Shown: piece after piece, positions 1,232 to 36,742 of the stretch | Layout: every line of letters starts with the position of its first letter | How positions within the stretch are numbered: position 1 is the stretch's first letter | NCBI GenBank assembly: GCA_022457155.1 | Contig: JAJGOT010000072.1 | Coordinates: 1,064,501 to 1,128,500, forward strand | Reading direction: 5' to 3' | Length of the DNA stretch: 64,000 nucleotides | From: Cladopsammia gracilis | Lineage: Eukaryota; Cnidaria; Anthozoa; Scleractinia; Dendrophylliidae | Notes under the pieces: model-generated | Told to the model about the DNA's origin: nothing | Seen by the model: the letters and a program-made list of their open reading frames with translations, nothing else | The model's database searches: none | Made by a program: the position numbers and the translations under genes

Positions 1232-4200
1232 TTACAAGATGATTTCATTTTTGTAACTCTGGCTAAGATCTTTGTGCGGCAAAACAATTGAGTTTAGAAC
1301 TATGACCTCTCCTGGTATTGTTACATTGCGACCTGGAAATAAAACAAAATAAAATAGTTGATTCGTTAATACTACCTTATCTTAATTGTACAAATAAACG
1401 AGGCAAGGCAATTTTTCTTGCACTTTGCATTTCAATGCCAATGTGAGATGGTTGCAGGAAAGTAGACCTATCAATGAATCTCCTTCGCAAGTTGTAAGGT
1501 AGATTGCAGAAGGTAACATGAACTTTATTTTGCAACTTGTATCAAAATACTTTTTTCAGCATTGCATTGAACGCTGCAAGATAATTGCTGCCTTGTGAAA
1601 AAGTTTATTGAGTACTCTAAGGGGATCACAGCAATTTTTTAGGCATTAACTAGGCTTCATCCAGAAAATATGAAAAACTCTAAAATAACACCTGCTTACA
1701 ACACATTTTTAATCTTAAATTTAAATTGGATTCACAGTTATAGCAGACAAGTCAAACAAAAAGTCTCTGTGAACATAGCATAACAAATGAAAATACAGGG
1801 AAACTATCATCACACTTGACAACTTCTTATAAAATTATTATTCAGTGGAAGAAAGTCCACATGCTCAAAGTTGTCGCTTGTTTCCAGTTCTGGTGTGGGA
1901 GTAGGCCCTCGCTCGAGTGACTCCCTCACTCGTGCTATCATATGCACTTGCTCAAGCTCATGATTGCACTCCAGCCTAAGCTGAACTTGTGGGCAAGTCT
2001 ACAGGAAAGTTGAATCGCTCTTCACTTTCTGCAACAAATTTCTTCAAGTTACACAAACGGAATCACGTGTAACATGGCTCTTGCAACTTAATTTACCATA
2101 CTCTTGAAGTCAACCAATCACGGCCCAGCATGGATGTGACATTAAATATGACATTTTTCAACTTACACAATATTTGTTTGCGAGAAAAGTTGTATAGCAA
2201 TAACAACTTGCAACAATTTTGTTTTGAGAGACAAGAAGCATGAAAAAAAATCTTACATGTAACAGCACCATAATACAATCTCAGTTTTCATGAATGAAAG
2301 ATAGCTGGATTTACTTTCAGCAATTTTCTCACCTAGTATAGTGATTGATGGAGTTAACTTGCCATTGTTACCAAACAGTGATTCTCCATCTGGCTTAGCA
2401 AACTCCTCATTAGGGTTCGGGTCACAGCGACTGCCTTCCACTCGTGACCACACCCCTATGGAGCAATTCCATCCTATGATACTATACAAGATACAGCAGT
2501 GATCCTGAATGCACAGAGAGAATTATAGAAAAACATTATGATGTGAGAAAAGGTACAAAATAACATATTTTGAGAGACATCCATTCACCACAGACTTTAA
2601 AGGCCCACCTTCACCCAAAATGCTGTGCGCGCCGTGATCACTTTCTGTGCTGAATTTCGGGTAACATGAAATTCGCTCATGAATGCATGCAACCAATCAG
2701 ATTAAAAGTATGAACAATGGAGCATTTCAAAACAAAAACAAATGACCGCAACGTCTTTTGGGTGAAGGTGGGCCTATAACCCTTTCACTCCCAGAGTCAA
2801 TTATGGAGACATGTAGTGTAGTTCTCACTTTTGAGTCTGTTGACGAAATCCTATGGTGTGACCATTCAAATGAAACCTCTTCAGCAATACTTTTGCATGG
2901 TACCATTTGTTCTAACTTTTGAGTCTGTGGATGAAATCCTATGGTGTGACCATTCAAATGAAACCTCTTCAGCAGTACTTTTGCATGGTACCATTTGTTC
3001 TAACTTTTGAGTCTGTTGATGAAATCCTATGGGGTGACCATTCAAATGAAACCTCTTCAACAGTACTTTTGCATGGTACCAATTGTTTTTCAATATTTTA
3101 CAAAATGAAATTTGGCAACTTTCTGAAAAAAATTTGATTTTTGGCATGTCTCCATAATTGACTCTGTGAGTGAAAGGGTTAACAGACATCATGGTTGCCA
3201 ACAACTAATTATTAACACTAACTTTACAGAATACTGATTCAAACCATTTAACAAACAAATATTGATAGTTATTACCTTGAGTTCAGCTCCATCAAGTAAG
3301 ATTGTCTCCCTGACTCTGGCTCCAGCACCAATCACTACATTGCTGCCGACAGATACGTTGGGACCAAGCTGAATAGCAACACAACAACAATCAGTCAACA
3401 TCTGATATTTCCTTTTATTGCAACTGAAGGGGTGAGTGGAATAAAGCACTAAGTGAATTCTGATCAACTGCTAGATTCTCCGTACAGTCTATCTTGTATA
3501 TGCTCATATAACTTAATAGTAATAGGTATACAGCCAAGGAATGGAAGAACTGACTGACGGAATGAAAATTTGATTATTTGTCCCCAGCAAATTTAACTCG
3601 TTTCAACACTTTGCATGTTCACGAGAAATTGAGAAAATGAAAGTACTTCTCAAGAACTGTAAGTTTTTTTTTCAAATGGGACCTCACACTTACAAGTTTC
3701 AAAAAGAAAATAAAAAACTTACCACTGCTGTTGGGTGAACAACTGCGCTTGGATGAATGCATACATCACCTTAAAAAGTAACAAATATTTCATAATATTT
3801 TCGTTACAAAATCTGCAGCATGTATTGTCAAAATTTGTGTTTTTAAAAAACCCATGACACCATCATGGTATATTTTTATACATTTCCTATAAATATAGTA
3901 ATTATTTGTTTTACATTACCTATTATATGAGGTTGGTCCTTTCCATTTTGTGCCAGGAGATCGGGATGAGTCTTGTGATACAGAGAAAGGACATTTCTAT
4001 TTGCATAAATTGCAGACCTGTTAAAACAATTAATATTATTTTAGCAAAACAAACAAATCCCCAAGCAGGACAGGTCAAAGAGTAGAGGCCAGACTAAGTG
4101 CGATGGACTGGTCCTCCAGGTTGCGAGCTGGATGCAAGGCCAACAACCTGCCCTGTAAAAAGCCTGCTGTTGCAGAAACCAAAAGCATTGACAATGATAC

Positions 4201-7200: not shown

Positions 7201-10200
7201 AATAAGTACATAATATTGTAGTTTAAAAATAATGATCTCAGGTTAAAATGATTTCATACTGGTTTGATTTGATTTGTACTTTTCCTTGTCTTAGGATTAT
7301 GTCAATTAATCTGGACAAAAGAAAATCAAAACTAAACTAGTTTGAAATCATTTTGAACTAAGATTCAGTTTAAACTACAACATATATACCACCGCAATGA
7401 TAAATGTTAAATAGAACGACGTCTTGTCGACAAGAGAATATGTACCCTTGGGGCTGAGATTAAGATAACATTGTTGACATGATGAAATTTTTGGGTCAAT
7501 ATCTCCGGCAAAAAGCATGCTACCCTTCATTGTAGAAAATGATTCATTTTCCCTTTTCTTGGCATTAAAACATTTCCTCAACTTTGCTATAAAGACAGTT
7601 GCCAAGATCATACCATTTTATTCTTCCTTTGGCCACGACAAAGCCACTCTTTCATGAACAAATACTGTGTTCTGATTGGTTAATAGTCGGTAAATTTTAC
7701 CCTACCAAGCAAAGATTTTTAGTCTGTAATGTTCTTGACTAGTACACAATGTTTTCAATAAGTGTTATGTACTATATACATTCATGAGAGATTTGACTCC
7801 AGGGGCAGGAAGGGGACTCCCATATAAAAATGACAGGGGTGATCATTGGCCATTTTTGAAAAAAAAAACACCTAAAACAAGGTACCAGAATCTTGTTTTG
7901 TGGATGTGGTTCAATTCTAAAACAATACTAATTTCTAAAATAACACCATTATATTCTGCCAAATTTTGCTGCTCGATACACTAAAAGGTACAGTACAGCA
8001 ATAATTAACGGTAGTCATTTTAGAATTTCGTTCCCCATGTGGTACCAATCTACAAATTTTGCCCTTTAAAAGACACAACAATCACCCCAGTAATATTTAT
8101 ATGGGAATCCTCCAAGGATTGGACTGTTAACTAAAACGAAAAAAAAAACATTCTTGCCTCTGTTGCCAGAATAGAATGTTCACCAACATGTTGCTTGTGA
8201 AATTCGACAAATTCCTGCAGAGGGTAGTCGCCCATTATGTCAGCATTCAGAACGACAAATGCTTCTGGGCTACCCATAGAGATTTGATCTCTAAAGTGAT
8301 ACAGGCCGCCTGCAGTACCAAGTGGTTGAAATTCCTGTAAATATCTACATCAAAACGAAAGAAAAAATTAAAACCTAAAAATTTCGGAGGGAAAGGGTAT
8401 GATTTCAGACGAAAACTTGCCCTTATAACCATTTAAGCCTTGATAGTGCTATATTATGGCACATAATCACATAACTTGTTCAATATCTGGTCAATTTCAA
8501 TGAATTTTGGCCACCAAAATGGTCTTGGAAAGATATACCCATTGAGCACATAAAACAAATCCATCTGAAGTTTTATGTGATCCAAAATTTTTAGGCTTCC
8601 AACACATTTACAGCTCTTAAAAAAATATGAAAGATATAATATTATATCTTTCATATGTTTTTGAAGGGCTGTAAAAGCTATAATAGTGACAAATTATACC
8701 AAATTGTTATACCCCAAAAAGTATCATTGAGCTAAAACCAGACCCCAAAAAATGTCCAACAGTCCATAATGTAACCCCCAAAAGTCCAATTTCTCTCTGC
8801 ACAAAAAGGTTATAAATGCTTTTGACAAACTCCCAGAAAGTGCTCACAAAAATCTTTCATCCCCCAAAAATTCACCACAAAATTTCTAACCCCAAAACAA
8901 TGTCCTCAGATCGCAAATTTCAAACCCCACAAAAGGTCTTTGTACCTCCCAGTTACTAGTACCCCTCTGGGGTGCTGGGATCAAGGCATAATACATTGTA
9001 TGTCATACAATAAACACAAGCTTTGAGCATTTTTTCCATTCACATTACTTAAAATTGAGGAAAGAATGTCAATTTAGTGATTCTCCCAAATACGTCATGC
9101 TACAGAAACCAGCTTAAACCTTTGTCTCCCAAAGTCAATGATGGAGACATGTAGTGTAGTTCTAACTTTAAGTCCGTGGACAAAATCCTATGGTGTGACC
9201 ATTCAAATGAAACCTCTTTGGCAGTACTGTGTTGACTCGTTCTATGGAGATGTGTAGTGTAGTTCTAACTTTTGAGTCTGTGGACAAAATCCTATGGTGT
9301 GACCATTCAAATGAAACCTCTTCAGCAGTACCTTTGCATGGTACCATTTGTTCTAATTTTTGAGTCTGTGGATGAAATCCTATGGTGTGACCATTCAAAT
9401 GAAACCTCTTCAGCAGTACTTTTGCATGGTACCATTTGTTTTTCTATATTTTACAAAATGAAATTTCGGATTTTTCTTGAAGTTCTGGCTCTGGCACTCT
9501 TGGGGTTGTCAGACTCTCCTGATCAATTAATATTGTGTAGTTCCAGAAAAAATCCATACCTACCCCATGGAAGGTCAGTGGAAATTCCTAGGGGGAGGGG
9601 GGTCTTAAAAGCCAATGTTTTAGAAGCAAAGTATGAAGCTAAACTGGAATTTCCTGGGGGGACAGGGTGCGCAAAACAAAAAACCTTCCGTACGGGGGAG
9701 TATGGATATTTTCTGGAACTGCACATTTCAATAGATACATATGACATTAATAATTATCATACATAACAAAAATTATCAAGTTTTACTGAAATATTAAGTA
9801 ATTATGGTACCTGATAGGAATACTGAATTCTTGTTGGGCATTTGTAATAAACTTTGACAAGATTTCACTAGATTGGTAGAAACCAATCAAGATAATTTCT
9901 TTCAGGTCTGGAATCTGAAAACAAATCAAATGGCAGCAACAATCAGATATGGGATACATGTATCAATATTCACGATTGTGATTGGTCATCTACATGCCTA
10001 TTCTTGGTTTTCACACATGACGTCATAAAAATGAAAAAATCTAAAGAATACGTCCTACAAAGCTGTTTCTAACATGGTATGTGGATACAAGTGTTATAAT
10101 CTTTCACAAAAAGTTTCAGGTTTTAACGACGTTTTGCTTCCAATTTACAAAGGTTTTAAATGTGTCACGCAATGCGTCACGCTATTTCAGATAAGCCGCA

Positions 10201-13200
10201 AAAATAAACAAAATTGAATCAGCTGAAAGTTATTGTCTGCATTATAAGTGCTTATAAGCCGAGTTTATGGCGCTTATAGCAAATACAATATTTTTTGGAC
10301 GTGATTTTTGGTGTAATTAACACTTTGAATTTTTGGCCGCCATCTTTATGCCCCTGAGTGGGGCACAAAGATGGCCGCTCCATACATTTCTTACTAAAAA
10401 TATCTAATACTCATTCGCCTATAACTCTTGAACGAAATGCTTTGGCGCTTCAAAATTTGGCCAAGATGTGTAGTTTTAAACTCTCTACAATTCCATAAAC
10501 ATTTTGGATTCAAAATCTATTTTTTAATGCTTCTGAATTTTGATATGACATAAGTGAAAGCCAAGAATATGTATTTCTTGGGTAATTGGCGTGGTCATGT
10601 GGGTGTCCAATGACAGCTGTGCAATTAAACCTTTTTGTAATTGGATAGCTGTTATTGAACACCTACATTGCACCCGGGGGGGGGGGGTACTCTGCAAATT
10701 TATGGGTAGGGGTGTGCCGCTGGGACTCTGAGACCCTTAACCTATACTAGACCATTTTGGCTGCATTTTGCAACCCTATTCTAGACTAAAGACCGAAAAA
10801 CCCTACCCTATCCTAGACCTATTCCAGACTCGCTACTTTCCAGAAACTCGTTCACTATCACAGTTATTAGTTAACAGGGGTCAGTAAAAATGCAGTACTG
10901 ATTTTGAAATGCCATTTGCCAGTAAACCTTGTCTAGACTAAATATCATGTAACTGATCAGTTTTGCGGAAAATGATAACCTCTCAAGCATGTTAAGGCAT
11001 GGCTTGAATCCTTGTCCCTTACCCCCAGCAGCGAACCTTGCGGGTTGACCCGTTACAACCTCCCTTAGCGGGATGTGATAGGGAAACAAACATGGCGGCA
11101 TATAAATGCATCTTGTTGTGTTCTTAATCCTCGGTCGTTTTAGTTAGCTGGGCAATTTGCCGCCCCTCTAAAATTTTTTTTAAAGAGAAAGGTATTGGCC
11201 AGTTTTGTGGAGGATTTCATGTAAACTCGGCAGATAAGAAGCTGGATTTCCGATTCTTTGTGTGCAGCGCTGGCAAATCGACGCGGCCTGCTAGATGGCG
11301 ATCGAGATCACTTTTAATGTTGGATGCTTGTGAGGGAGCCCTATGAACGTAATAAAATTGTCATGGAAGGTAAGCGAACATGTTTATTGCTTCTTTTATA
11401 ACCTGAGCAGATAATTCACCGTTTAAAATATTTCTCGAATAATGAATATCCTTCGGCAACAAACGTTTTCGCATTTGAATTTTTATTGCAGAAAATGAAT
11501 AATAGTATTTCATGTTTCCTGCAAAAGAATACAAGTATAGCTTAAATTAAAGTATTTTCCTGTAAAAGTCTCGATTTCAGATGCCAAAAAACACAAAATA
11601 ATACGTTTTTCGTAGTGTAATTAAATAAGACGTCAAGATCTAAATTCTCCTTGGAATCTCCAAGAAATATTATACGCCCTCAAAGAAGAATTTAGCATTT
11701 TATCATCGCGAGCAATTTCTTTTCAGCAAATGCGTCCCAAAATTGCCCTTTCTGTCTTTCATATCAGAATAAACGCACTCTACGACTCAAAGGCTATCTA
11801 CTAATACATTTTTAGAAATATTCTTTGTTCTAAACAAGTGATTTGAATGCATTTGATATTTACATGTAATTATGGAAACTCACAGGGCACATGTATTAAA
11901 TAGAGAGATTTCACAAAACTTGATTCTTACATGCTACTAGTCCAACAAATAATTCTTATGACAATTTTGTACATTTTGTGCACAAATATTATTCAACATG
12001 ATGTATATTTGTGATAATATTCTTCCAGCTGATTCGTGCAAAGCTGTTTTAAATTACCGGTGGCATACACCATTTCATAAATGGCTGCCTTGCAGTTTTG
12101 AAAAGTTTAAGATGTCTGCAACTAAAGAAAGAATTGAATAACGAGAAACATTGTGTCAAAATGAGTCATGTTTTTTTAGTGTTGGGCTCATATTCTCATT
12201 TGACGAGAAGTTATAGGCAATAATTGAATTCTGGCTAAAACATCAGTGAAAGTGAGTCTAGTGAGGATAGGTTATGACTTCCCATACAAATGCCTTAAAT
12301 TGGAATGAGCCATAACTTGAACCACAAACACTGAAACTTCCCAAGATAACACTTGTAGTGCTTGGCAATGTGAAAACTTAAATTACTTTGAAAACATACC
12401 TGGTAACCAAACAAAAATTGTGGGCAGACATTTACATGTAAAAATATTGTGAATGTGACTGAGTTTTGTGAAATTCTCTCCAATAATGTCCAAAGCATTT
12501 AGTTGTATCTACAAAAGGTGAACTGTAATGTTCCATGACTCAAGGAGCTTCAAGGCTACTTTTTTCTTTTGAGTCAATTCTTTGAAGTGGCCATCACTAA
12601 TATAGTCACTATCATTTGGTATTCTGCCATGAGTTGCCAGAAAATTCTCATCCCACTGTTTTAGCTGGTTTTTGACAGATCTTAGTTCCCTTAAAACACA
12701 AGTTTGCATGTTGCTAAGAAGTGAGTCATACTTCTTTCTGTAAAAGTGTGCCTTGGGGTTTTTTGCAACTGTTTGCTTCAGTCGATCAATCTCGGAGACC
12801 TCTGGTGTTTTCCCTAAAATTAATTCTAAGGCCTTTGCAGTCTTTGACTGAACCTCCTTTCCTTTTTTTGGTGGTATTTCTATTTTTCTTGCTTTCCTAG
12901 GTGGCCCCGTTTGGCAGTCATTTTCAGAAATGACTGTTTGATGTATGCTTGAGTTATCTGCTATAATCACTTCTAGATCTCCTGGTGATTCAGCATCAGG
13001 CTGCTCAGCTGAATGCAAATCCATTGCAATAAGATTGTGTTCTTCTATTTCAAGCTCCGCCTGTTGATCTTCAAAAATGATCTCAGTTGTTTCGTCGCCA
13101 TTTTCTTTTCTTGTGTTTTCTTCCTGTTCAGGATACAGTGCATGCGCAGCTGCTGCATATTGCATCAGTGGGAGATTTTCTGGTTCAGTTTCATCCTGAA

Positions 13201-16200
13201 CTGGATCTTCAGACTCCCTGTGGTAGATTAGTTTGCCATCTTCATCCCTCATTTTGTAAAGTGGAAGCTTGCCAGGCTGACTAGCACATTCCTTCCAGGT
13301 TTTCTCCAAATAGTGGCATATCTTGCTTATGTTGTTTGATCTGAAGGGATGAAGTTGAGGACCTTGTGCTCTGTTGTCTTGTTCATCTGGTGCATCAAAA
13401 AACTCAATAGAACCATCTTCCCTCCACTTCCACCAAATCTCAACCCCAGGTTTCAGAAAATCACAGATCTTGGATAGATGTGCTTGCCATAGGCTGGATC
13501 TCTTTGTCATGAGTTCCTTTGAGAAAACTGAGTTGGTTGGTTTGGGAAGACCTTTTGCAAGACAAGAGATTTCTTTTTCTTGGCTTGCAAGGGTTGTCAA
13601 ACTGTTTGTCTCTGTTGCCATTGCATCTTCAGCTTGAATGTGCAGGTAGGCATTTGGCACAAGGTCTTCTATGTGCTTGTTCCAGGTCTTTCTGGTGATG
13701 TCCTCAATCCTGTCAAAATACCTCTCAAAGAGCTCAGCACAGATGGAACGGAGACAGACCAGCCTGTACAGCAGTGGTGCATGATCAACAGCACCATGAT
13801 AATAAATACCACACAGCTTTCGCAGGGTTAATTCCTTTGGTGGGGTGAGCAGCTTCTGGATGGCTTGACCATGTCTAAATGAGATATTATAAAGGCGTAG
13901 CACTGATCTGGGGCTTCTTTTCCCATCGTTTTCATAATAAATGCCCATCATCTCACAGAAAAGGAGAAGGATATCTTTCTCGTCTTCTGTGAGGAGATTC
14001 TTGTTGGATAGGGCAATGGTCACCTTTAAGATGGCTCTTCTGTAGTCAGTTGCTCTCAGTTTATCTTTCTTCAAGGCCAAGGTTGTGATTTCTTTAAACA
14101 GCAGCAGGGTGTCAACATTTGTCATGTGTAGAGGCAACTCTGTGAGAATGTTGGCTATGTGATTGAGACATGTGTGGAGAGGTTCAAAGAAAAGGACTTC
14201 ATAATCTTGTAGATTAAGCTCATTAAGTGACTGTTTCTGTGATCCAAACAGCAAAGCAGGTACTCGGCTTGTCCCTCTCAGCAAATCAGTTAGCCTCTCT
14301 TGAAGTTCCTTTTTGTTGCCATGCACATCAACTCCTCTTGAATTTAATTCTGCTCTGATATTTTTAACTTTGAGGGATTTGAAGGGGCAGGTAGCATCTG
14401 ATTTTCCAAATTTTCCTTTCAGCACTAGGCTCTGCTTTTCTTCAAGGTTTTGGTACTTTTGGTGAGCCATGTAGTGATACTCGCTAGCCCGTCTCATGTC
14501 TCCACCACATCCGGAGCAACCAAAATGCCCACCCTTCTGTGTACCATCTTCAAATTCTACTGCTGGATTATCACCATTCATAAATCGCATCTTTTCTTTA
14601 AGCTCCACTGTTTCAGTTTTATCTGGCACCTGAACTTCAGTGAAGTTTAGCTCTTTTAGACACTCTCTTCTGGTTGGAATGAAGGCAAGTTGGTCTGAAT
14701 CTTTTGCTCCAGCAGCACCTAGCATGTAGAGGTGTGGGGCCTCTATTACTGACTGCACATCCACTCCTTTCCCCCCTTGTTTCTCCTTCTGTTCCTGGTT
14801 AGTGAGATGAACAGCAGGATCGAACACTTCTCGCACTAAAAACAACATAAAACCTGAGCTAGCTATACTTGAATGGTCATGCCATATGAGCCAGTGTCGG
14901 GTTCTCTCACACTTCTTGAGATGTTGGCGGAGTTGGTCATCGCTCATGTTGTCACTGTACTCATGGAGAAGCTGTAGTCTTGTCTTCAGCTGCTCTGGTG
15001 TCATGCTGTTATACTCTTGATCGGTTCTCAATCTCAGTAGATCTTTGTGCATTTTTGCACTTTGTGCACAGACTTCTTTCAGTGGGTACTTTCTGGCAGA
15101 AACTTTACAGACTTTCTTTTCAATGTTTCCCTCTGAAGTGAGAACTACCTTAGTGTATTCGTTGTCTAGCACAGGGATGCCAAGATTGAATTGCCCCAAT
15201 GCAATTCTTTGTTTTATGTCTTCTCGTATTCCTTGGTTGGTACGAGGGACAGGAACAGAAACTGCACCACCAACTTGTTTCTTTAAAGCTCTCCTCACAC
15301 GACACTTCCCTTGGTAAACAAATAATTAAAAAAAAACATTATAATTATGTTTTATACTTATATTTGCAGATTTTATTTTTTGTGGGGGTAGGGGTCGGGG
15401 GGGGGGGATGAGGTATAAATAGTAGTCATATAATGATAATATTCATCTAGTAGGCAGGCCAAACAATTTCAAATCAGCCTTACATCCAGTGACAGGCTGA
15501 TTTAAAAGAGTAATCATGACTACCCTGAATTATATGACCGAAAGTTCAATTACAGTCCACAGGTTAGAATAATAACATTGTCATTATATTTGTTTATTTC
15601 CTTTTGTGTGAGGAAATCGAACTGGACTGCAAATTGAACTGCACTGCAAATGTGTCACTGTGAATTTTGTTTGTTATTTGTATTTAAAACAATAATTTAT
15701 TTTTGTTCATGCATGAGTGATAATTATATACCTCCACTGGCTGGCTCGAAGGGGGTTGTGTCTATTCCATTTGACTTCAAGAATTCTTTTATTATTTGCC
15801 CTCCATTAGGTGGGGTGGTCTCACTGGTATGTCCTCTGATTTGATACTCTTTTGCCTTTGCAGACCAGCAGACAGGTTCATGAGGCCAGTTCTTCACATC
15901 TTCCAAAAGCTGTTCAGTGTTCCCGATGACTTCTTTAGGGATGTGAGAACGCTCCTTCATTCCAGGTGGGGTTTTTTCTAGTCTTGTTTTGGCTTGTTGT
16001 ATTGTTTCGAAAGATTGATAAATTCTTTGTTTTTCTCTTGAAGCCAAAGATGCTCTCTGAGCTAAATGAGAGTCAACGTCATTTTCTTTCCACACAGCTT
16101 CAACATAGGTTTTGAATTCGCGTTGTTTTTCCAAACGCTGTTTTTTTCTTTCATTTGGGCTTTGTTTCTTTTGAAGGTTTAGCTGTGGTACAGCAAGCAG

Positions 16201-19005
16201 TACCTCACTAAATGACTTGCCCAGATTTTCCTTGCATGTCTTTTCATATGTAGTAAAGATCATTTCTCCAACAGCTTTGAGTTCTCCTTTGGTTGCTTGA
16301 GCCTTTTTGGGGACATGGTTTGCTGATCTGTTTTTAATTTCATTAAAAGGGCCCTTAGGTTTATTTTTGTTTTGTTTGCTTTCAGGGAATGTTTCACTGA
16401 TAGATGCATGGAAACTTTTGCAGCACTTGCAGTTTTGAATGCTGTGCAGATTTCGTCTAGGTGGTGTTGTTTTGGACCATTTTGCAGAGGAAAACTGTGC
16501 AAGATAGGCCTGTTTGTCCGCTGCTTTTCTCCACTGCGATATTTTGTCATCAATGATTTTGTAGCACTTCAGAAATGCAACTGTTGATGTAATTTTTTTA
16601 CAGGAACTTATGTTAAGATTTTGCCATTAAATATTGATGAAAGTGAATGAAATGCCATATCACTGAAGTTTATATTTACCTCTGTCGAGTAACAGTGGTT
16701 TGTAGTCTTTAAATTGCTCAATGTAGAGGTGAAATCTTTCATCTAGAATGCGCCTATTAAACTGGCCCTGTGTTTCATCAGAAGCTCGGATAATGCTCTT
16801 AAAAGCAGTTGTTTTTGTCTCCCAAATGAAGACCCTAGCAAACCCACAGCAAACTCTCTCCGTCATTTTGAAACTGCGCGCCAATCCGCCAAAATCTGAA
16901 GTATTTCGCATGCGCATCGTCTCGAATTTCAACTGAAGCTCATTCCAATGTAGTTACGTGCCTTATAGAAACCTTCCTGACTGAAGAAGACATAACATTT
17001 AGAAGATTGTCCGACGTTTCGTGGCTGATAAATGTTCGCAGAAAATTGACTTTGCATTACAAATATCTAATACACAGCATTTCCAAAATACGCTTGGTGA
17101 ATTTATTGAAGCGCTTTGAGTCGTTTACACGCTTTTACCCCAGCAAAAGTAGTTCTAATATGACTACAAACGACATTCGTCTTTGAGTTCTTATCACCTC
17201 TTTCGTCCGCCATCTTTGTTTAGCTTTCAATGCGATGTTCTTATTGGTCAGATGCTGATGGGAGAGCCGCCAGTCTATTTTTTCAGTGGTGCCTACCTAT
17301 CTATTTAGTTGCCAGGCTCCTGGCCGACGAACGTTCGTCCCAAAATGGCGCCCGTTTTTCTATTTCTTGTATATGCGCTACTTTGAGGGCAAACGGGGTG
17401 CTGAATTTAACAAGGACAACCAATGTAAACGGCAAACCTCAAGCTTTTAAAGTTCTTCTAACGTTTTCTGGCCGGAATGGTGAACTGAATGTTAAAATAA
17501 AGTTTTATTTCGAAGCTAATTAACAAAATTTATAAACATCGGAGATTTTTGTCAAAAAATCATACTTTTAAGTTTACGTAATCAACCATTCCGGCCAGAA
17601 CTCTAAAGAGTACGAAGACCTGCGTATAGAAATACGTTTACTTGTATAGGTTGTGGGTCATCTCGTCACCCCATTTTAAGTTTTCTATCGAACAATTAAA
17701 CCTGACGTCACAGGTCACGTGGTTAACAAATTGAGGTTCTGTCAACAGAAATATGTTAAGGCAAACGAGTTTTGTTTGCTTGCCAAGTTTGGTGGCAATT
17801 AATCGATTCTGTGAGCTACAATGATTTTTTTTCGTTTTTATAATATTTTAAGCCCAAGCCATGCCTTAACATGCTTGAGCTATTCTAGACCAAAAATCTC
17901 TGATTACTATACCCTATCCCAGACTAAACTGCCTGAAAACCATACCCTTCACAGTGGCACATACCATAACAGCTCATTTATGGGAGTACCCCCCCCCCCC
18001 CCCAGGGATTGCACACACATCAATCAGGTTTTAAACTGATAGAAAACATCCGTGTAGTAGAATAATGTTCACATAGATTTTTCAATCTCGAATTTTGTTA
18101 TTGATGTAATTAACTATTAACAGTTCAGCGCCGGATTATCATGCTTGTATGCTTGGTTTCTCTTATTCTTTTCACAATGACATTGTTCTGCTATCATAAC
18201 AATAATACTAATATCTCATTGCTAATAAATACTTTCTGGAATTATAATGGTTGCCTCTCGCTTAAGGATAGGATTTTTAATAACACCTTAAGGATCATTC
18301 TAGAGTCAAATACCAACCCTTTATATGCAAACTAAAAAATAATAGCAAAAAACATGTCTTTATCCTAGCCTGACCATTTTCATTTTTCCTTTTTTTATGT
18401 AAGCAGGCCTTTAGCATTAGAAGAATAATTTCTCATTTTCTCTTCAGAATACCCTCAATGAAAAAATGTCGGTCACATACAGTGGCATGCTAAAAGTTCG
18501 TTTTGCATCAATTGTCACAGAAATACACGTACACAGTTTGTATTTGCGTGACAAAGATCAGGGAATATTATTCACTACAGAAATCACAAGTTCTGTAGGA
18601 TTTTCTCGATCAAATCAGGTTTCTATTCACAGATTCAATACACTGTATTAGTTCAGCTTAGTTGTTTATCGGTAATTTTTAGTTTTATTCAATAAAAATA
18701 TTGTTTATGAAGAACACACTCGTACAGCTGTGTAAGTTTAGGTCCTGGAAATACTTAAGCTTAATTATTACTCCTACCTTTTTGCAAGCTTCAATATGAT
18801 GATATACAACTGGAAATCCTCCAATAGGGAACAACGGTTTGGGCAACTCCAAAGAGAGAGGACGGAATCTTGTTCCTGAGATCATAAAAATACGAAGCTT
18901 ATCATCATGCATGCTGCAAGCAAGAGTTCATTCTTGAAGACAAGTTACAGTAAGCAAAAGTTTACCTTTCATAGGACCTCCAATGAGAATCACAGCCTTA
19001 ATCAT
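1232..19005 (-). CDS. GMPPA: Mannose-1-phosphate guanylyltransferase regulatory subunit alpha (GMPPA), 12 coding exons, complete
   Basis: Coding exons, in transcription order: 18966-19005, 18778-18875, 9811-9914, 8158-8344, 6801-6860, 5223-5353, 4681-4809, 3920-4017, 3723-3769, 3276-3368, 2333-2504, 1232-1332. They sum to 1260 bases, 419 residues plus stop, against about 420 in the human protein; all junction phases agree. The N-terminal nucleotidyltransferase domain shows the [13 protein letters not shown] and PKPLFPIGG signatures (residues about 9-31), then [17 protein letters not shown] and VEKPETF. The C-terminal part has left-handed beta-helix hexapeptides ([26 protein letters not shown]) and ends in NEIIL as in animals. 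Known role of the family: GMPPA is a catalytically weak homologue that binds GMPPB and gives GDP-mannose feedback control in the cytosol. The intron after exon 4 appears to use a GC donor. Intron 2 hosts a nested transposon gene. A minus-strand AATAAA at 1188-1193 lies about 40 bases past the stop. Confidence 0.96.
2601..2775. mobile_element. Short foldback element with GGCCCACCTTCACCC ends
   Basis: AAAGGCCCACCTTCACCCAAAA on the left matches the inverse TTTTGGGTGAAGGTGGGCC on the right. It lies in GMPPA intron 11, directly next to the element starting at 2778. Confidence 0.65.
2778..3180. mobile_element. AACCCTTTCACTC foldback element carrying 88-bp tandem repeats
   Basis: The left end AACCCTTTCACTCCCAGAGT and right end ACTCTGTGAGTGAAAGGGTT are inverted. 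Inside are three units of exactly 88 bases containing GTGTGACCATTCAAATGAAA and TGCATGGTACCATTTG. The unit length is confirmed by GTGAC at 2858, 2946 and 3034. Other copies: 9114-9480, 24840-25255, 30010-30130, 37984-38480, 41300-41470, 51870-52060, and a 106-bp variant at 20396-20770. Confidence 0.75.
4083..4335 (+). pseudogene. LINE fragment, N-terminal end reaching the endonuclease start
   Basis: The plus-strand frame reads [14 protein letters not shown] and then IGCLNVRTM, which resembles the first beta strand of a LINE apurinic-like endonuclease (typically I.T.NVRTL). The frame then loses similarity. It is a short dead fragment in GMPPA intron 7, antisense to the host. Confidence 0.5.
4868..5046. 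mobile_element. G-rich foldback element with ATATGGGAGCCCCC end
   Basis: The left end GGGGAAAGGGGGCTTCTATACA pairs imperfectly with the right end TTTATATGGGAGCCCCC plus a poly-C run. ACCCCAGTCATTTTTATATG also occurs inverted at 7796-8113, so this is a small family. It lies in GMPPA intron 6. Confidence 0.5.
5048..5136. repeat. Hairpin GTTCAAAAGGTGGATAG family
   Basis: TTGTTCAAAAGGCAGATAG pairs with CTATCCACCTTTTGAACAA, with TTTATCTGG in the loop. A related sequence is at 26645-26720 in PA2G4 intron 8. Confidence 0.6.
6894..7206. repeat. Dispersed foldback repeat, copy 1
   Basis: It contains an inner palindrome (7068-7206): TTATTGACTAAGTTAGGTCG pairs with CCCTCCCACTTAGTCAATAA, around CGGTCCGTACGCCATGACC. 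A diverged copy is at 59217-59630, so the whole block is mobile or was duplicated. Confidence 0.6.
7796..8113. mobile_element. Foldback element with GGGACTCCCATATAAAAATG ends
   Basis: The left ACTCCCATATAAAAATGACA and right AATATTTATATGGGAATCC are inverted, both flanked by CCCCAGT/GGGGTGA. It is related to the element at 4868 and lies in GMPPA intron 4. Confidence 0.55.
8700..8975. repeat. CCCCAAAAA-rich dispersed repeat
   Basis: Repeated CCCCAAAAA/CCCCCAAAAG motifs spaced 30-40 bases apart. The inverted equivalent (TTTTGGGGG) is at 21725-21945, so it is a dispersed degenerate repeat. No coding content. Confidence 0.45.
9114..9480. repeat. 88-bp tandem repeat element, copy 2
   Basis: Two full units plus one deleted unit of the 88-bp repeat (GTGTGACCATTCAAATGAAACC), entered through AAACCTTTGTCTCCCAAAGTC, a degenerate form of the terminal repeat at 2778. 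It lies in GMPPA intron 3. Confidence 0.65.
9528..9726. mobile_element. Foldback element with GTTCCAGAAAA ends
   Basis: TGTAGTTCCAGAAAAAATCC on the left and GGATATTTTCTGGAACTGCA on the right are inverted. G-rich internal arms (GGGGGAGGGGGG, GGGGGGACAGGG) pair further. It ends 85 bases from GMPPA exon 3. Confidence 0.6.
10001..10567. mobile_element. Foldback element with TTCTTGG(T/C)TTTCAC ends
   Basis: TTCTTGGTTTTCACACATGA at the left and ATGACATAAGTGAAAGCCAA at the right are inverted with few mismatches over about 25 bases. There is no open reading frame of note inside. It precedes the G-rich foldback element in GMPPA intron 2. Confidence 0.55.
10982..11006 (+). repeat. Left terminal inverted repeat of the 6.9 kb transposon
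   Basis: 25 bases beginning CTCAAGCATG and ending GGCATGGCTTG, identical to the reverse complement of 17855-17879. Identity stops immediately inside the repeat on both sides. Confidence 0.8.
11282..11370 (+). other. Possible noncoding or first exon inside the transposon, plus strand
   Basis: A relatively GC-rich stretch (GACGCGGCCTGCTAGATGGCG) ends with ATGGAAG followed by GTAAGCG, a strong splice donor. If real it would start a second, divergent transcript in the element with ATG at 11364. No downstream exon could be assigned. Confidence 0.2.
12509..16932 (-). CDS. Nested 1300-aa SAP-motif protein, candidate transposase (3 exons)
   Basis: Exons: 16680-16932, 15732-16580, 12509-15309. They total 3903 bases, 1300 residues plus stop, with no internal stop and clean GT-AG junctions (phase 1 at both introns). 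I took the upstream ATG at 16932; an in-frame ATG at 16866 would remove 22 residues. Exon 2 encodes a Cys pair ([10 protein letters not shown]) and a long basic, probably coiled-coil stretch ([19 protein letters not shown]). Exon 3 encodes [12 protein letters not shown] (about 510-521), [11 protein letters not shown] (about 613), CSGCGG (about 632), a SAP-like helix-turn-helix (about 678-712: [20 protein letters not shown]) and [11 protein letters not shown] (about 736). The last 150 residues are acidic then basic. I cannot assign a named superfamily. The setting between inverted repeats suggests a transposase, and the aspartates and glutamates in the first two motifs could be RNase-H-fold acidic residues; that is inference. 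A domesticated nuclear protein is the alternative. Confidence 0.8.
17466..17600. repeat. 16-bp perfect inverted repeat upstream of the nested gene
   Basis: TTCTGGCCGGAATGGT at 17466-17481 is the exact reverse complement of 17585-17600, with about 100 bases between. It lies inside the transposon, about 530-670 bases upstream of the first ATG of the 1300-aa gene. It could be a regulatory or protein-binding subterminal repeat, or a small nested element. Confidence 0.5.
17855..17879 (-). repeat. Right terminal inverted repeat of the 6.9 kb transposon
   Basis: Exact reverse complement of 10982-11006. It lies about 920 bases upstream of the first ATG of the 1300-aa gene, so the promoter must be between the two. 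Confidence 0.8.
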
Positions 19006-19306: not shown

Positions 19307-22300
19307 ATGGCAGATAAAGGAAGTGATTCTGGCGAGGAGGAGGATCCTACAATTGCCGAAGATGTTGTTGTTACGAAATACAAGATGGCTGGGGACATGG
19401 CTAACCGTAAGTGAAGTGTCAAGTTTTAAGAGTTTTCGATTTCATTCTCTGTTGAATTCGAATGATTCCAATTGAATGAATGATGTCAGCTAAACTGTCG
19501 TGTTCATGAAAATCACTGTCACTTTCGATACTTTCCGCTGTTCTACAAACGTCCCCCTATTTTTGCGTTCCGAAGAAACATGCCCTCTTTATATTCGATA
19601 ATTGTGTTGCCTTCATCAGGTCCGTTTTATACTTTAATTTGTCAAGGTGAAACTGAGTTTTAAGCTTTATTAACGAAGTCTAATTTTAGCTTGAAGCCCA
19701 GTGGAAGAGTTTTACACTTATCCAGTGCATTAATCACTGTAAACATAACAGTATCACGGATGTGTACTTTTGTACATATTCAAGCTGATAACATCTCGGG
19801 TTGTATTAATGACTTTTAATAGCTTACATATTTTTCCATCTTATTCCCCTGGAAATAAAGCTTAAAGGTTGTTTTGGATATATTGCCAATAAATCATATC
19901 ATTATTAAGTAATGCCACCTCACAGGTACTTCCCATATTGTTGTAGGGAATTGAGGTTGTCAATAAATTGAAAAAGGAAAACGTTAAGCTTGACTGAAAT
20001 ACAAGAAGCAGTGCATCATTAATCTGTGAGAAAATTTTCAAACTGAAATTTTTGGTCCGTACTGCCATCTCCCAGAGAAACTGGCATCTTCATCAACTTA
20101 AAAGTCTACAAGGAGTGTCAATTCAGCAAGGCAGTGTGGAAGAGCGATAAAGATTTAATGAAGTGAATAGGCTTAACATTCTCCACTGCACAATATTGAT
20201 ACAAACAAACACTTCCAAAGTTCACATACTGTACGTAATTTCATATCTTTCATTTCCATATCTTACATTAGCAGCTGAAGTAGTAATCTTAACCATTCCC
20301 TAATTGAGTCATGCATTGACAAGTTTGAACAATGTGATTCTAACATCTGAGAGTTTATTTGCTATTGTATTACTGTTTATTTGCTATTTTATAAGGTGGT
20401 TCTAACTTTTGAGTCTGTGGATGAAATCCTAAAGTGCGACCATTCAAATGAAAGCTACTGAGCAGTACTTTTCTGTTGTACTGTTTATTATACTGTACAA
20501 GGTGGTTCTAACTTTTGAGTCTATGGATAAAATCCTAAAGTGTGACCATTCAAATGAAAGCTACTCAGCAGTACTTTCCTGTGGTGCTGTTTATTATGCT
20601 GTACAAGGTGGTTCTAACTTTTGAGTCTGTGGATGACATCTTACAGTGTGACCATTCAAATGAAAGCTACTGAGCAGTACTTTCCTGTGGTACTGTTTAT
20701 TATGCTGTACAAGGTGGTTCTAACTTTTGAGTCTGTGGATGACATCTTACAGTGTGACCATTCAAATGCACAGTGTTTTCCCTATTGTGGATGGAGCCAT
20801 GTTGGTGATCAGAACAATAAAATGACCTTGTTTTGTTAACAAGTCTATTGCTGTGCAATTTTTTTGCAACCACAGACGTGGCTGTTCTGCAAACCAGACA
20901 TACATACTCCTCTCTCCCAACCCCCCTCCCTCCAACATTTTTTTTAATTGAAGGGCTGAGTGGAATAAAGCCCCAATTGAATTCTGATCAACCGCTAGAT
21001 TCTTCTTACAGTCTGTCTTGTATATGCTCATGTAACAAAGGGAGAATTTGGCTATAGATCAGTAGTCACTTTTGGCCTTATCCCAAACTGAAATAAGGCC
21101 CTAAGTGACCCCTGATCTGAAACCAAATTCTCCCTTTGTTACATGAGCATATACAAGACAATCTGGAAGGAGAATCTAACAGTTGATCAGAAGTCACTTA
21201 AGGCTTTATTCCACTCACCCCTTCAATTGCTCTCACAAATAACTTTTACCATATCTTGATGGATAAGTACTGCAGATTAAAGTCTACTTTGCATTTAACA
21301 TTCTTTTATATTCAAAAGGTGTTCTTAGGAAAATCATAGAGTCTGCAACTCCGGAAACTACGGCACGGACACTGTGTCAGTTAGGAGATAACCTTATTGA
21401 GGAAGAAACTGGCAAAGTTTACAAGAAAGAAAAGGAGCTCAAGAAAGGTATAATTAGTGCATATTTCCATTATCTACAATTTAATTCACTACAAAGGGGG
21501 CAGTGGTTTGGGCAACCATCTGCCAGCAGTGGCTTGAGCTCTACTTTTCGTATTTGTTTTTTTGAGAATGTTTGAGGTGAAATGTTTCTAAGTTCTTCTG
21601 GCAACAGTTTCCAGAGTTTCGGAATTGAATCTTATAGGTACAGTGAAATGAGATCCTCATAAATTATAAGGAGAGCAGCAAACTGTAAATAAATAAGTAT
21701 AAAATTAAAATATTTATCTCAAATGTATTATCCTCAGGAGGAGTTTTGAGGTTTCAAATTTGTGATCTGAGGAGTTTTGGGGGTTAAGAAATTTTGTTGT
21801 GACCTTTTGGGGGATGAATTAGAGCTTGGTGATAACCTTTTTGGGAGTCAGAGAAAAGGGTAACCTTTTTATGAAGAAAAGAAAAAAAAATTCTTTTTGG
21901 TGGTGGGGGTAATCTTTTTTGGGGGACTTATTTTACCCTAATAGTACTTTTTTGAGTCGAACAATTTGACCTCATTCTCACCTTCCTGTAAACTATTAAT
22001 TTAGCTGAGTTCCTCTCTGGGAAATTATCACTGTTTTGTTAATGATGGCTGTCTCTTTGTATTGCCAGGTATTGCATTCCCAACATGTATCTCAGTAAAC
22101 AATTGTGTTTGTCATTTTTCACCCCTTCTAAGTGAGCCGGATATCACTTTACAGAATGGCGACCTTGTAAAAATGTAAGATGGTTAGCTTTGTATACTGT
22201 TCATATTGATTTTGTTAATTGCCTTAATGTTTTGTATCTGATAGAATCAAGTCTTTCCTGTGCAAGAAAAATCTTGTATCAAAAGCACATGTCTTGTATT

Positions 22301-24407
22301 GATTGGTATTAACTCTGCACTTAGAAAAGCTGGTGAAATGGATGAAAATTATTTACCACATTGCAAAAGCTCTTATGCATATCACATTTTTTTGTTTTAA
22401 AAAACAAAATTTGCATAACACACTCTTTCACTTTGTGGATGCTATTTGAACTTTCATTGACACTCTCAGAACTAGCAGCAAATCTCATCACGGTGCACGC
22501 AGCTTCTTCTTCAACTGGTTGTTGCTTGGGCACTGGTGAACACTCAACCAAAATGAAATACAACTGCATGCCCACACTGCATATAGATTCTGAAGAACCA
22601 CAAAGATCTGCCTCCTGTAACATTAATATGTACACGTATCCTATAAAGCATGCTTTTACAATACAAGCGAATAACCTGAGTGTGTGTTTGAAAAGTAATT
22701 GACCACACTTTTTTGTGAATTATTTTGCTTCTTGTGTATAAATTGTTGTATTTTCTTCATCTTTCAGAGACCTTGGTGTACATCTTGATGGTTATATTGC
22801 AGTAGTGGGACACACAATTGTCGTTGGAGCATCAAAAGTAAGCTTAGAATTCTTTTATCTGTCATTAATGTGACCATTTCCATGTAAGGTGCACAGCCAT
22901 TACTGGTTAACATTTGTATTGAGTTTACAAATATGCTTTGTGACCAAAGAGTTGGGTTCTGGAGAGTGATACAAAGAGAAATTCTAAATCATCTTGAGAA
23001 AGAGTTATACCCCAGAAAGAATTACCTGTATTCAAAAAAATTTGTCAGTGGATTATACTCGGTTCTTTTTTTAATACAAGTGTTCTTTCAATGTAATAGA
23101 CCATTCACATTCACATATCGGTATTGGTGGAACTGGTTTGCAGTTGAGGCTCATGTGGGGCAATCTTTTCACATGCAATTATTTTTAAGAATATTCCCCC
23201 ACATGAGCCTCCATTGCAAGCTACAGTACCGGTCAAATGTAAGTTGACAGTCACTCGAAACTCGAACGACTTGACTCGAACTTCGAGTTTTGAGTCGCGA
23301 ACTTCGAGTTTCGAGTCAAGTGCTTTGAGCTTCAAGACGAGAAAACAAAAAGCTTGCCACTCAATTAATTCTTTGGAAGATTAACAAAAGGTTGCACTTC
23401 TGTTTGTTTCAAGGAACTCACACGACCTTACAGCGTAGCTGACTTTACCAATGCATAGTTCCAGTTCTGAGAATACAAATATGGTCTATTGAAGTGTGCA
23501 TTTGATTGTACATATAGACCTCTTTCATAATGGCAGCCGATTTATTTATTCTTTTATATGTATTTTAATTAGCCTCACTGGCCTCGGTCACATGTGCAAA
23601 ATTCAAAAGAATTTTTACTCTAAAATGAGGCCAGTGAGGCTAATTAACATACATATAAAAGAATAAATAAATCGGCCGCCATTATGAAAGAGGTCAATGA
23701 TATTCTGGAATAAAAATAATACTATGCAAGGCATTCACAAAAAAATCACCTTTTTCAGGATTTGAGAGCCACTAGAAATCCAAACATCTCTTTTTACCCT
23801 ATTGTATGCATGTCTTGCCAGATTTTTACTGCAAGTGCAAGGCTGCAAATAACAGCCTGTCATCCGACCAATGTCCAGTAAATTTGGCATAATATTTATT
23901 GACTGGTGAAAGCTTAGCCTGACCTGACAGACAGACTGGGCAGTTCTACTACTACACCTAAATTCAGACAGAAAATATTTTCCACAGTCAGCTTTGATCA
24001 GCAGGCACTTTTCAGTAAAGATTTAACCAAGTGGAACAAAATAATTGTTCAACCAGACTAACTTCTTGTCCCTGGACTGACAAATGACTTGCTAAGAGAA
24101 GAAAGTTATTTGCAGGCTTGCAAATGTCCCTCAACAAACAATTCTCAGAGACTATTCTGTTTATTGTTATTCCACAATATTGCCAATCGAACAAGCCCGT
24201 AATCTAATGCCACATGTACACCTTATACATTACAGGACAATAAAGTAACGGGTCGAAAAGCTGATGTGATTCAAGCAGCGTACTTAGCTTCTGAATTAGC
24301 GCAAAGACTTGTCATAGCTGGTAACGAGGTAATACATCTAATTATTCTGACTGTATATTCAGTAATAGTGTATTGCAATAGTGAAATAGTGTATTATCTA
24401 GTGTATT

Positions 24408-24465
<58 letters not shown>

Positions 24466-27422
24466 TTTTTAATGTGGTTAATGGTAAAATAAAATGAATG
24501 AATGAATGAGTAGTTTTCCATGGTCTTCTTCTCAGTCTGCCTTTTTCTTATCTGTTCTGATTATAAGTTCACCTTAATTAAGTTATATTGTAAATGGTTT
24601 GAAATTAATTAAGTTATGAAAAGTGGTTCTGACCTCCAGATGAAATTCTTTATTAATCATTAAGTAATGCTCCACATAAGAACTACCATAAACTTCATTG
24701 TTCTGCAGCATTGGCTCTCTCCCACATAGAATATCTTTGGTTTCAAGAATAGAGGAGGAGCTGATGGTTCATAATTATGTTTCAGTATAAAAATAATGAA
24801 AATCCATTTGCGTCAAATAAATTTTAGGACATTACAAATTACATTTCATAAAATATAGAAAAACAAATAGTACCATGTAAAAGTATTGAAAAAGAGATTT
24901 CATTTGAATGGTCACACCATAGGATTTCATTGACAGACTCAAAAGTTATAACAAATGGTACCATGTAAAAGTACTGCTGAAGAGGTTTCATTTGAATGGT
25001 CACACCATAGGATTTCATCCACAGACTCAAAATTATAACAAATGGTACCATGTAAAAGTACTGCTGAAGAGGTTTCATTTGAATGGTCACACTATAGCAT
25101 TTCGTCAACAGACTCAAAAGTTAGAACAAATGGTACCATGCAAAAGTACTGCTGAAGAGGTTTCATTTGAATGGTCACACCATAGGATTTCATTGACAGA
25201 CTCAAAAGTTAGAACTAAACTACATGTCTCCATTGTTGACTCTGGGAGTGAAATGGTCAAAAGAAGGGGCCGAGCAGCTTTTTCAGTTGCTGCCCCAGTC
25301 TTATGGATCAAACTTCCTCTTACAGGTTTTAGGAATGTATATAGGGGAATCTTTGTCTACCATTTTTGCCTCATTAGCATATGCACCTTGTTCTCTAACC
25401 TACCTACATAAAAATCAACTCTGAATATTGGAAGGGCATAGCACAATTAGCTTTCTTTGAAAATTTGAGCCCGATATACTAGGTACACTTCGTGCAATGT
25501 TGTATTAAAAACTCAAAATTTTACAAAGAATGTATGGGCTCATTAGCACTTTTGCCACCCAACAATTTTGCAGTTTTTGATAGCAGATATTTCCTTAAAT
25601 ATTGCATGAAAAAAGCTGAAAATTGCATAGGTTACTAAGTTTAACAAGCTCTTTCAACTTTTGAAACCAATTCGTATTTAGCGTGATGCCTTCTCTATGC
25701 AGATTCGTATGCTTATTAATGAAGCATATATATTATATTTATTATAAAATTTTCTTTTTCTCCTGTGCCCGCCTCGAATAGCCCTTGGTAATCACGGGCA
25801 CAAGCTTTGTAAACTTATACTTGAAATAAAACTTGTTGTTGTTGTTGTTGTTAAGCAAAATGTAAACAATGACGTCAGCAAAGATTCCCCTATTGGGTCA
25901 ATAAAACTAACATTTAATAACCTGTTGCAGAACTACACAGTAACAGATCAAATACAAAAAGTAGCAGAGGCATTTGAATGCAAACCTGTTGAAGGTAATC
26001 TCCGTTATTTTTAATTGTTGTATTCTTGCCATTGTTTTTGTTAATAAATTGTGATTATCAATTTTTTTTCTTACAAGGAATGCTATCTCATCAATTGAAA
26101 AGAAACGTCATTGATGGTGAAAAAGCAATCATTCAGAATCCTTCAGAACAGCAAAGGTATTAATCTGATGTATTTATGTTTGCTTTTCCTTTATGATTGC
26201 CTTACAATCTATTGTTTGAACTCTGGTTTGAGCTGAGTAGGCTGCCTGTGGCAGAGTGGGTGTCCTGTGGCTGTGTGGGCCACCTATGGCTGAATGGGCC
26301 ACCTGTGACTGAGTGGAATGCCTGTGGCAGAGTGGATGGCCTGTGGCTGAGTGGTATGCCTGTGGCTGAGTGGGCTGCCTGTGGCTCTTGTAAGATGTAA
26401 CCATACCATACCTGAACTATAAAGAGCATTAAGTAACCTAAACATTTTGCTTGGCTATTTGTTCCTTTTCATGACAGGAAAGACCATGCCAAGTGCGAGT
26501 TTGCTGTACATGATGTTTTTGCAGTTGACATCCTCTTTAGCACAGGGGAAGGGAAGACAAAAGAAAAGGATACTCGTACGACAGTGTACAAAAAAACAGA
26601 CAACTCATACAGCTTGAAAATGAAGGCATCTAGAGGTATTATACAGGCCCCGGTTGTTCATAAGGTGGATAGGATAGCACTAATCCACTGGATAAATCAC
26701 TATCCAGTGGATAACACAATTGTATTCGTTTCTCATTCATATCTGTACCTTATTATTTATACCTTGTTACTGAATCTTATGTATTTCACATACTTGCCAC
26801 ATTCTTACGCTTTTCGCACATTTTACTCTACATTTGTATATAGACCTACGCGGAATATTTTTCTTTTTATCCCTGATGATGCCGTTGATCACCGAAAGCT
26901 TGGATTTTAGCATTTAATCACAGTAGTTTTAGGCCTCATTCAAAAATAATAATAATTTTATTTGCCTATAAACTGATCTTGGCTATGTGCTATATAATCC
27001 CACACCTTACACTTGCAATGCAGAAGCTGGCAAAGTCAATATAATTTGAATTTAAAAAAACTTCATTCTCTTATTATAGAGGCAGGGAGGGCTTAATAAA
27101 GTATTCATAGTATGGTTTATGGAAGTTTCATTTACATGGGAATCTACTGAAATTAATTTATGGATTAAGAATAAATGAGTGTTGAACTGCTGGAATTTCA
27201 TCAAAGGTAAAATCCCCCTTCTCACACACAACTGGTAGCCATGCGAAGCCAAAACATGCAGCCTGACCTATATTAACGATAATGTAACAAAAACATTACA
27301 AACTAGGCAACAACTGGTTACCGAAAACTCATGGACCCTCAATGGCCTTACAAGAATGAAAAAGAGAGGAATAAAATTAATGACCTACCAAACTGGAAGG
27401 TGGGCGGGCAGGAGGTCAGGCA

Positions 27423-35244: not shown

Positions 35245-35702
35245 AGTGCCTATCACCCCTAGAAAGTTATTTTCAGAATCAACTCTATGTACATTAATTA
35301 GTTGAATGGCAAAATATTTCTTGTTTTGAACATCATGTTAGTGAGTTATAGAGATTTGAATTTACAAAATGCTAATAAGATGATTTCAACCCGGGAATCA
35401 TTTATTATACAACTACTTGTTTTCACCTCCAAGTAATATTTTTTTTATGAATCAATTGACTCTCCACAGTTTATTTTTAGTATTTATCAAATTAATTATC
35501 CTCAAACTGTAAACTGGGCATCGTAAATTGGCATAGAAATAATGGCAAATTCCCGGGTTGATATCATCTAATTAGCATTTTGTAAATTAAAATCTCTATA
35601 ACTCACAAACGCGACATTCAAAACAAGAAATATTTTACCATTCAACTATTCAGTGTACATAGAGTTGATTCTGAAAATAACTTTCTAGGGGTGATAGCCA
35701 CT
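35245..35702. mobile_element. Foldback element (MITE) with TTAA target duplication, copy 2
   Basis: Same element as 360-815, similar length (458 versus 456 bases), with TTAA at 35241-35244 and 35703-35706. The arms and centre are recognisably the same. Confidence 0.75.
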
Positions 35703-36456
35703 TTAAGCAACCACAACGGCAGCGAGAACGGCACAAAACAATAGGTTTAATGAGCGAAAACAATGCCTCTGCACGTGCGTTTTACATTTTGGTACATTTC
35801 TTTGCCATTCCCTGCAAAACAACATCACATGATCAAATTATAGGTTTTGTGGAGAACGTGAACACACAACGGTTAATTTTCCTTTCTCCATTTGAACTGG
35901 AAAGCCATCTCTTTAAATTCAGCTAGTGGACAAATCCAGTCACAGATAAACTGAACAACTGCAAAAAATAGTGCAAATCCTTTTTTAAAGTGACGTTTTC
36001 CTTGGCGTTGCCGTCGTCATTGCTTAAGCTCCTTTATATTTTGAAAGCAGAGAAGACTCTGGAACGAGGTTGACGGTGGGCCACTTTCAAAGGAACATTC
36101 ATGGAAAATTCAATATTAACTTCACCAAACAATCCCCTCTTTGGTATTGTCACCATGTTGTCAAACTTGAAGCCTGCTTGCAGAGGGGTAGCCTGAAAAA
36201 ATGGACATTGTTTCACAGTGCCACTACTAGGGCCCTTGCGAACACCAGCGAAGGGGACATTCACACATGCTTGTGGCTTTTCCACTTGCATAAACTATTG
36301 CTCATAAATTATGGGGGATGAGACAGTCTCTTTTCATGGGGATTTCAGTAATAATGATAATAATAATAAAAATAGTATTTTAAGAGGAGGCCTCCAATCA
36401 CCTAAAGGTGGTTTTCAGGAGGGTCCTCTGTTGTTTCACCCACCCCTTGAAATAGA

Positions 36457-36742
36457 AATTGAAGGGGTGAGTGGAATAAAGCCCTAAGTGAATTCTGATC
36501 ATCTGCTAGCTTCTCCTTCCAGTTTGTCTTGTATATGCTCATATAACAAAAGGAGAATTTGGCTATAGATCAGGAGTCACTTACGGCCTCATCCCAAACT
36601 GGAATAAGGCCTTTAGTGACTCCTGATCTGAAACCAAATTCTCCCTGTGTTACATGAGCATATTATACAAGACAAACTGGAAGGAGAATCTAGCAGTTGA
36701 TCACAAGTCACTTAGGGCTTTATTCCACTCACCCCTTCAATT
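36457..36742. mobile_element. Near-complete 280-bp palindrome, copy 2
   Basis: Same palindrome as 20946-21228, from AATTGAAGGGGTGAGTGGAA to its mirror at 36724-36742. This copy has cleaner ends than the first. Confidence 0.75.

Follow-up and report, generated by a model that had tools for sequence, protein, structure and literature searches.

A complete transposon within GMPPA

The window analysed here is a 64,000-nucleotide stretch of contig JAJGOT010000072.1 (positions 1,064,501 to 1,128,500) from the coral Cladopsammia gracilis, and within it a complete DNA transposon sits in an intron of the housekeeping gene GMPPA. The element runs from 10982 to 17879 (6,898 bp), has terminal inverted repeats (TIRs) separated by 6,848 nt, and carries on its minus strand a three-exon gene with GT-AG splice sites and both introns in phase 1, which encodes 1,278 amino acids without a stop. 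Exon matches to GMPPA, located with a human GMPPA sequence as query, lie at 19005–18775 and 9923–9807, with seven more further down, and every one of them is on the minus strand; the element occupies most of the intron between the matches at 18775 and 9923. The original prediction had proposed this layout and was right in each of its parts: a perfect 25-bp inverted repeat (25/25 complementary, at the positions it gave), a three-exon gene of about 1,300 codons with no internal stop, and a position inside a GMPPA intron.

The transposon also seems to be nested inside an older repeat. Joined with a single CT, the window flanks read AACCTATTCTAGACCAAA, which resembles CAACCCTATTCTAGACTAAA, found at 10771 within that same repeat; such a likeness would be expected had the element landed there. 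If the CT is a 2-bp duplication, an element-free allele should read AACCTATTC, with one CT. The element is enclosed by a 17-nt poly-G/poly-C inverted repeat (10676–10692 and 17984–18000), within which motifs resembling CTATTCTAGACTAAA occur.

Copies, families and recent mobility

A search of the organism's own genome (878 Mb, 1,469 contigs) with the first 91 bases from position 10970 returned 17 matches, self included. Ten of the 16 non-self matches start at query bases 9–14, the first TIR base being query base 13, and six start elsewhere. Among the 16 genome stretches examined for copies (L009–L024), L009 and L010 are full copies of the same family (A), 98.6 and 99.1% identical to the window element from TIR base 1 through the last base, with all three exons open. 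This divergence of 1.4 and 0.9% from two other intact copies fits the original prediction that the copy is young, and the 25-bp terminus recurs around full copies that end alike. A second family (B) is represented with both ends by L013, L014, L015, L018 and L020, each 7.6–8.0 kb long; both long exons of family B are open in L015 and in L016, whose right end, like those of L017 and of family F, was not located. The remaining stretches (L011, L012, L017, L019 and L021–L024) are truncated, decayed or nested, L024 having no element match past its short terminal one. The decayed, truncated or nested state of L011, L019 and L021–L023 shows that there were older waves of activity as well.

Far from being a single-copy gene, the transposase has at least 59 stretches matching its exon 3 protein in this genome, a figure that is a minimum for the search and yet exceeds the copy number, as decayed copies yield several stretches each. 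Identity to exon 3 separates family A (90–100%), B (about 72%), C (55–57%), D (43–44%), E (34%) and F (36–40%), which are the clear cases grouped by identity and coordinates, with some intermediate rows left ungrouped. In each family, one stretch or more is free of stops. Two family D copies are 99.8% identical, and some families have therefore moved recently. Between families A and B, the ratio of nonsynonymous to synonymous substitution rates (dN/dS) for exon 3 is 0.13 (dS 1.47, 922 codons; rows with w 0.000 reflect saturated dS and were disregarded). The protein was under purifying selection between these families, as expected of a transposase that its own element needs.

Termini and target site duplications

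Twelve copies from families A–E could be scored at both ends, the other fetched copies lacking one or both. A 2-bp target site duplication (TSD) flanks 11 of the 12: CT in the window, GC in L009, AT in L010 and L013, AA in L015, TA in L018 and L028, TT in L020, CA in L025, TC in L027 and AG in L031. The duplication has no fixed sequence, and its frequency is far above chance (P 3.4e-10, with a probability of 0.11 per copy calculated from flank composition). L026, the sister of L025, lacks its left end. The sole scored copy without a 2-bp duplication is L014 (C1438:1847500-1856300), where GTC stands at either flank and may be a 3-bp duplication.

Eleven representative ends, read on both sides for families A–E and on the left for F, give CTC[A/G][A/C/G]GnnnnTTAAGGnnTG; the right end of L020 departs from this consensus (CTCAAACATGTTTAGG). 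All 12 scored copies have CTC...GAG at both ends. Several diverged families share one terminus type, and TIRs fall on identical bases across several copies, as for a cut-and-paste TIR DNA transposon.

A transposase that sequence searches do not recognize

A Pfam scan of the protein found a SAP domain and no transposase family. SAP was also found in 28 of 45 aligned members at E ≤1, and the single contact with a transposase family across those members was to PF02992 (Transposase_21), which one touches at E 0.085 and which is absent from the other 44 at E ≤1. Ten divergent relatives scanned whole had no PF02992 match at E ≤2. A PDB sequence search gave three matches at E ≤10, all within the SAP stretch and none to RAG1 or Transib; NCBIfam, a bacterial and archaeal library, had no match to three proteins at E ≤0.1; and N-terminal residues 1–350 matched none of 1,519 candidates. 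Viral contigs gave ten pattern matches, none of them a relative, and of 413 matches to viral structures none reached E ≤1e-3. No second frame of at least 150 amino acids that could encode a RAG2-like partner was found in the element, a check of single frames that a multi-exon partner would escape.

Fifty-three relatives were found in a protein collection by a search that scored the 8,000 candidates sharing most words. The named database records among them are labelled hypothetical or SAP domain-containing proteins. The five that carry an organism name are all anthozoan (Actinostola twice, Exaiptasia, Nematostella and Paramuricea), and with names on those 5 of 53 a cnidarian-specific lineage, as suggested earlier, is not established. 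The alignment used here (A2) has 45 rows and includes 44 of the 53, P0002, P0031, P0042, P0043 and P0046–P0050 being left out. In one of those, P0031, a 2A-like peptide (GDVELNPGP, residues 161–169) precedes the N-terminal part of the transposase; it might separate the protein from a preceding product during translation, or might point to a nested retroelement.

A predicted RAG1-type catalytic core

Two predicted models, one of the exon 3 protein and one of the relative P0028, have RAG1, HzTransib and BbRAGL as their best fold matches, in a ranking that covers the families present in the structure lists, among whose hits the RAG1 group is represented by RAG1, RAGL (RAG-like) and Transib only. 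Both models score lower against Transib than against RAG1. The enzyme is thus predicted to share the RAG1 fold although every sequence search used fails to recognize it, and the two models suggest an RNase H core of RAG1 type with zinc modules, as in the CMCT clade. The spacing from H509 to E528 is 19, versus 20 in RAG1. A second HxxxxH pair, H378/H383, is almost equally conserved (43/43 and 42/43). By position, the end of exon 2 probably corresponds to a helical and possibly helix-turn-helix-like stretch of P0028 (helices 174–227 of its model).

The predicted DDE fold and conserved residues support the earlier view that the protein is the transposase. That view had left the family unidentified; its main inference stands, and by its predicted fold the protein now falls in with RAG1, with Transib and with the CMC group.

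Table 1. Features of the element in the window. Residues are numbered within exon 3 unless marked as protein; fractions for residues count ungapped alignment rows.
Feature	Coordinates	Strand	Evidence
Target site duplication CT, left	10980..10981	.	CT flanks both sides; 2-bp duplication in 11/12 scored copies
Left terminal inverted repeat, CTCAAGCATGTTAAGGCATGGCTTG	10982..11006	+	Complements right arm 25/25; two further family A copies end alike
Transposase exon 3, predicted RAG1-like core and stop codon	12509..15309	-	Open frame; predicted fold
Predicted catalytic E (E528, alternative E525; protein E874 or E871)	13724..13735	-	Each 44/44; helix 525-540
Predicted zinc ligand pair HxxxxH (H504, H509)	13781..13798	-	Each 44/44
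SAP domain (residues 309-344), between CxxC and HxxxxH	14276..14383	-	Pfam PF02037, E 1.7e-9
Predicted zinc ligand pair CxxC (C264, C267)	14507..14518	-	Each 43/43
Predicted catalytic D2 (D246, protein D592)	14570..14572	-	43/43; after strand 233-244
Predicted catalytic D1 (D144, protein D490)	14876..14878	-	D in 40/41, N in 1; strand 136-148
Transposase exon 2	15732..16580	-	Open frame, canonical splice sites
Transposase exon 1	16680..16866	-	Open frame, GT donor; identity of the encoded protein to L009 98%, to L010 100%
Right terminal inverted repeat	17855..17879	-	25/25 pairing with left arm
Target site duplication CT, right	17880..17881	.	Matches left CT

These features suggest how transposition might proceed. 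The transposase would dimerize and pair both TIRs, with the N-terminal helical part and the SAP domain helping to grip DNA. Protein residues D490, D592 and E874 would hold two metal ions for metal-dependent DDE cutting, and the CxxC and HxxxxH pairs (C610, C613, H850 and H855) would, like those of RAG1, bind one zinc. Excision of the element by the enzyme would follow, perhaps via hairpins on the flanks, a guess from RAG and Transib, and joining with a 2-bp stagger followed by repair would yield the 2-bp duplication.

Relationship to known systems and alternative explanations

We consider it very likely that the element is an autonomous cut-and-paste DNA transposon, intact and active in recent times, whose DDE transposase is of the RAG1 type, most likely from a CMCT lineage apart from Transib/RAGL and from the CAC-ended CACTA and Chapaev. 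The CMCT clade has a C(2)C and H(3–4)H pattern throughout (PMC12730594), TSDs of 2–5 bp, and CA...TG termini in most lineages, with no strict requirement (Kojima 2025, PMC12730594). From the second D to the E the element has C(2)C followed by H(4)H, and its 2-bp duplications fall in that range in 11 of 12 copies. It works like the members of the CMCT clade and is probably one of them in the wide sense, but we assign it to no named lineage.

Some observations count against this interpretation. The 12 scored copies of families A–E end in CT...AG rather than CA...TG, and the family E ends, having been picked among 22 inverted pairs by likeness to the terminus, are weaker evidence than the others. 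Taken alone, the 25-bp inverted repeat would prove little, because perfect 25-mer inverted pairs are not rare in the window, where those at most 10 kb apart form 13 clusters with the element's own TIR pair counted. What takes the repeat beyond chance is that copies at other loci end on identical bases with 2-bp duplications. The twelve other clusters could still suggest a host gene that merely lies between chance or fold-back inverted repeats, an explanation refuted by full copies with the same ends and 2-bp duplications at unrelated loci.

The closest rival is a divergent EnSpm/Mirage-type family: the element would be an outlying member of EnSpm/CACTA (or Mirage, or Lanisha), possibly one already named in Repbase, with the same mechanism and no new lineage, and we give this a substantial minority share of the probability. 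The animal CACTA element ENS1_Cis also makes 2-bp duplications, between CAC...GTG ends (PMC6004678), the C(2)C, H(3–4)H pattern is common to the clade (PMC12730594), and one member touches PF02992; however, CTC...GAG rather than CAC...GTG stands at both ends of all 12 scored copies, PF02992 is otherwise absent from members and divergent relatives alike, and the catalytic region contains a SAP domain. More broadly, the element resembles EnSpm/CACTA, Mirage, Plavaka, ESTA and Lanisha in its C(2)C/H(4)H between D2 and E and in a 2-bp TSD within range, but differs in its CT...AG ends, SAP insertion and lack of PF02992 in 44 of 45 members, a separation drawn from published descriptions. Chapaev has the CMC-type DDE pattern too, but its TSDs of 3–4 bp and invariable CAC...GTG ends (PMC4079192) are not those of the element.

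A Transib or RAGL transposon proper would account for the top fold matches, and with RAG1 core/RAGL (ProtoRAG) the likeness is detailed, extending over about 440 residues of predicted fold and a D–D–CxxC–HxxxxH–E succession at near-equal spacings. We nonetheless disfavour this reading as very unlikely. Identity in the structural alignments is about 9–13%, sequence searches of Pfam and the PDB matched neither RAG1 nor Transib, the SAP domain sits mid-core, and no second single frame of at least 150 amino acids was found in the element that could encode a RAG2-like partner. Transib and RAGL have 5-bp TSDs and CAC heptamer-like ends (PMC7204232), whereas the element has 2-bp duplications in 11 of 12 copies and CTC ends; Transib stands further off by its structural score, which is below that of RAG1 in both models.

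Even less probable is that the RAG1 match reflects a shared fold only and the enzyme belongs to another RNase H-like superfamily (P, hAT or MULE), as RAG1 leads by roughly 7 to 11 Z units, with a match that covers model residues 1–569, including CxxC and HxxxxH. P and hAT elements have TSDs of 8 bp, against the 2 bp found here.

Other repeats in the window

Perfect 25-mer inverted pairs also occur at 356–819, 467–708, 21014–21160, 23536–23676, 28882–29527, 35250–35697, 36456–36743 and 59969–60254; they are probably miniature inverted-repeat transposable element (MITE)-like or fold-back repeats, and those at 356 and 35250 have CTATCACCCCTAGAAA in common. A dispersed minisatellite with an 88-bp unit, present on both strands (2821–3087, 9262–9440, 24862–25215 and 38051–38402), seems to account for the inverted 25-mers at 20407/25008 and 30015/38380. 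Long open frames on the minus strand at 46994–48010 arise from a 48-bp tandem repeat with 20 copies and are artefactual. The coral CMITE elements, described as TTAA-flanked with CCCTTT (PMC2872659), are unrelated to the transposon.

Significance

RAG1, which cuts antibody genes in humans, derives from a transposon. New here are a RAG1-type predicted fold, the 2-bp duplication, a family-wide terminus and the SAP insertion. No description of such a lineage turned up at title and abstract level in the open-licence literature. At somewhat short of even chances, the element may represent an undescribed, superfamily-level RAG1-fold lineage, recently mobile, with its own CTC...TTAAGG terminus, a 2-bp TSD and a SAP domain between the zinc pairs in most members; its predicted core is nearer to RAG1 than to HzTransib by score, so it may serve as a new outgroup in tracing how the V(D)J recombinase arose.

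This case shows that a multi-family transposon whose transposase is invisible to Pfam can be placed from predicted structure. The element is also a candidate gene-transfer tool for cnidarians. A lineage that is diverse, was active recently and shares the predicted core, with a 2-bp rather than 5-bp cut geometry and an extra DNA-binding domain, would provide a natural experiment on which parts of the RAG1 core determine the length of the stagger and the choice of ends.
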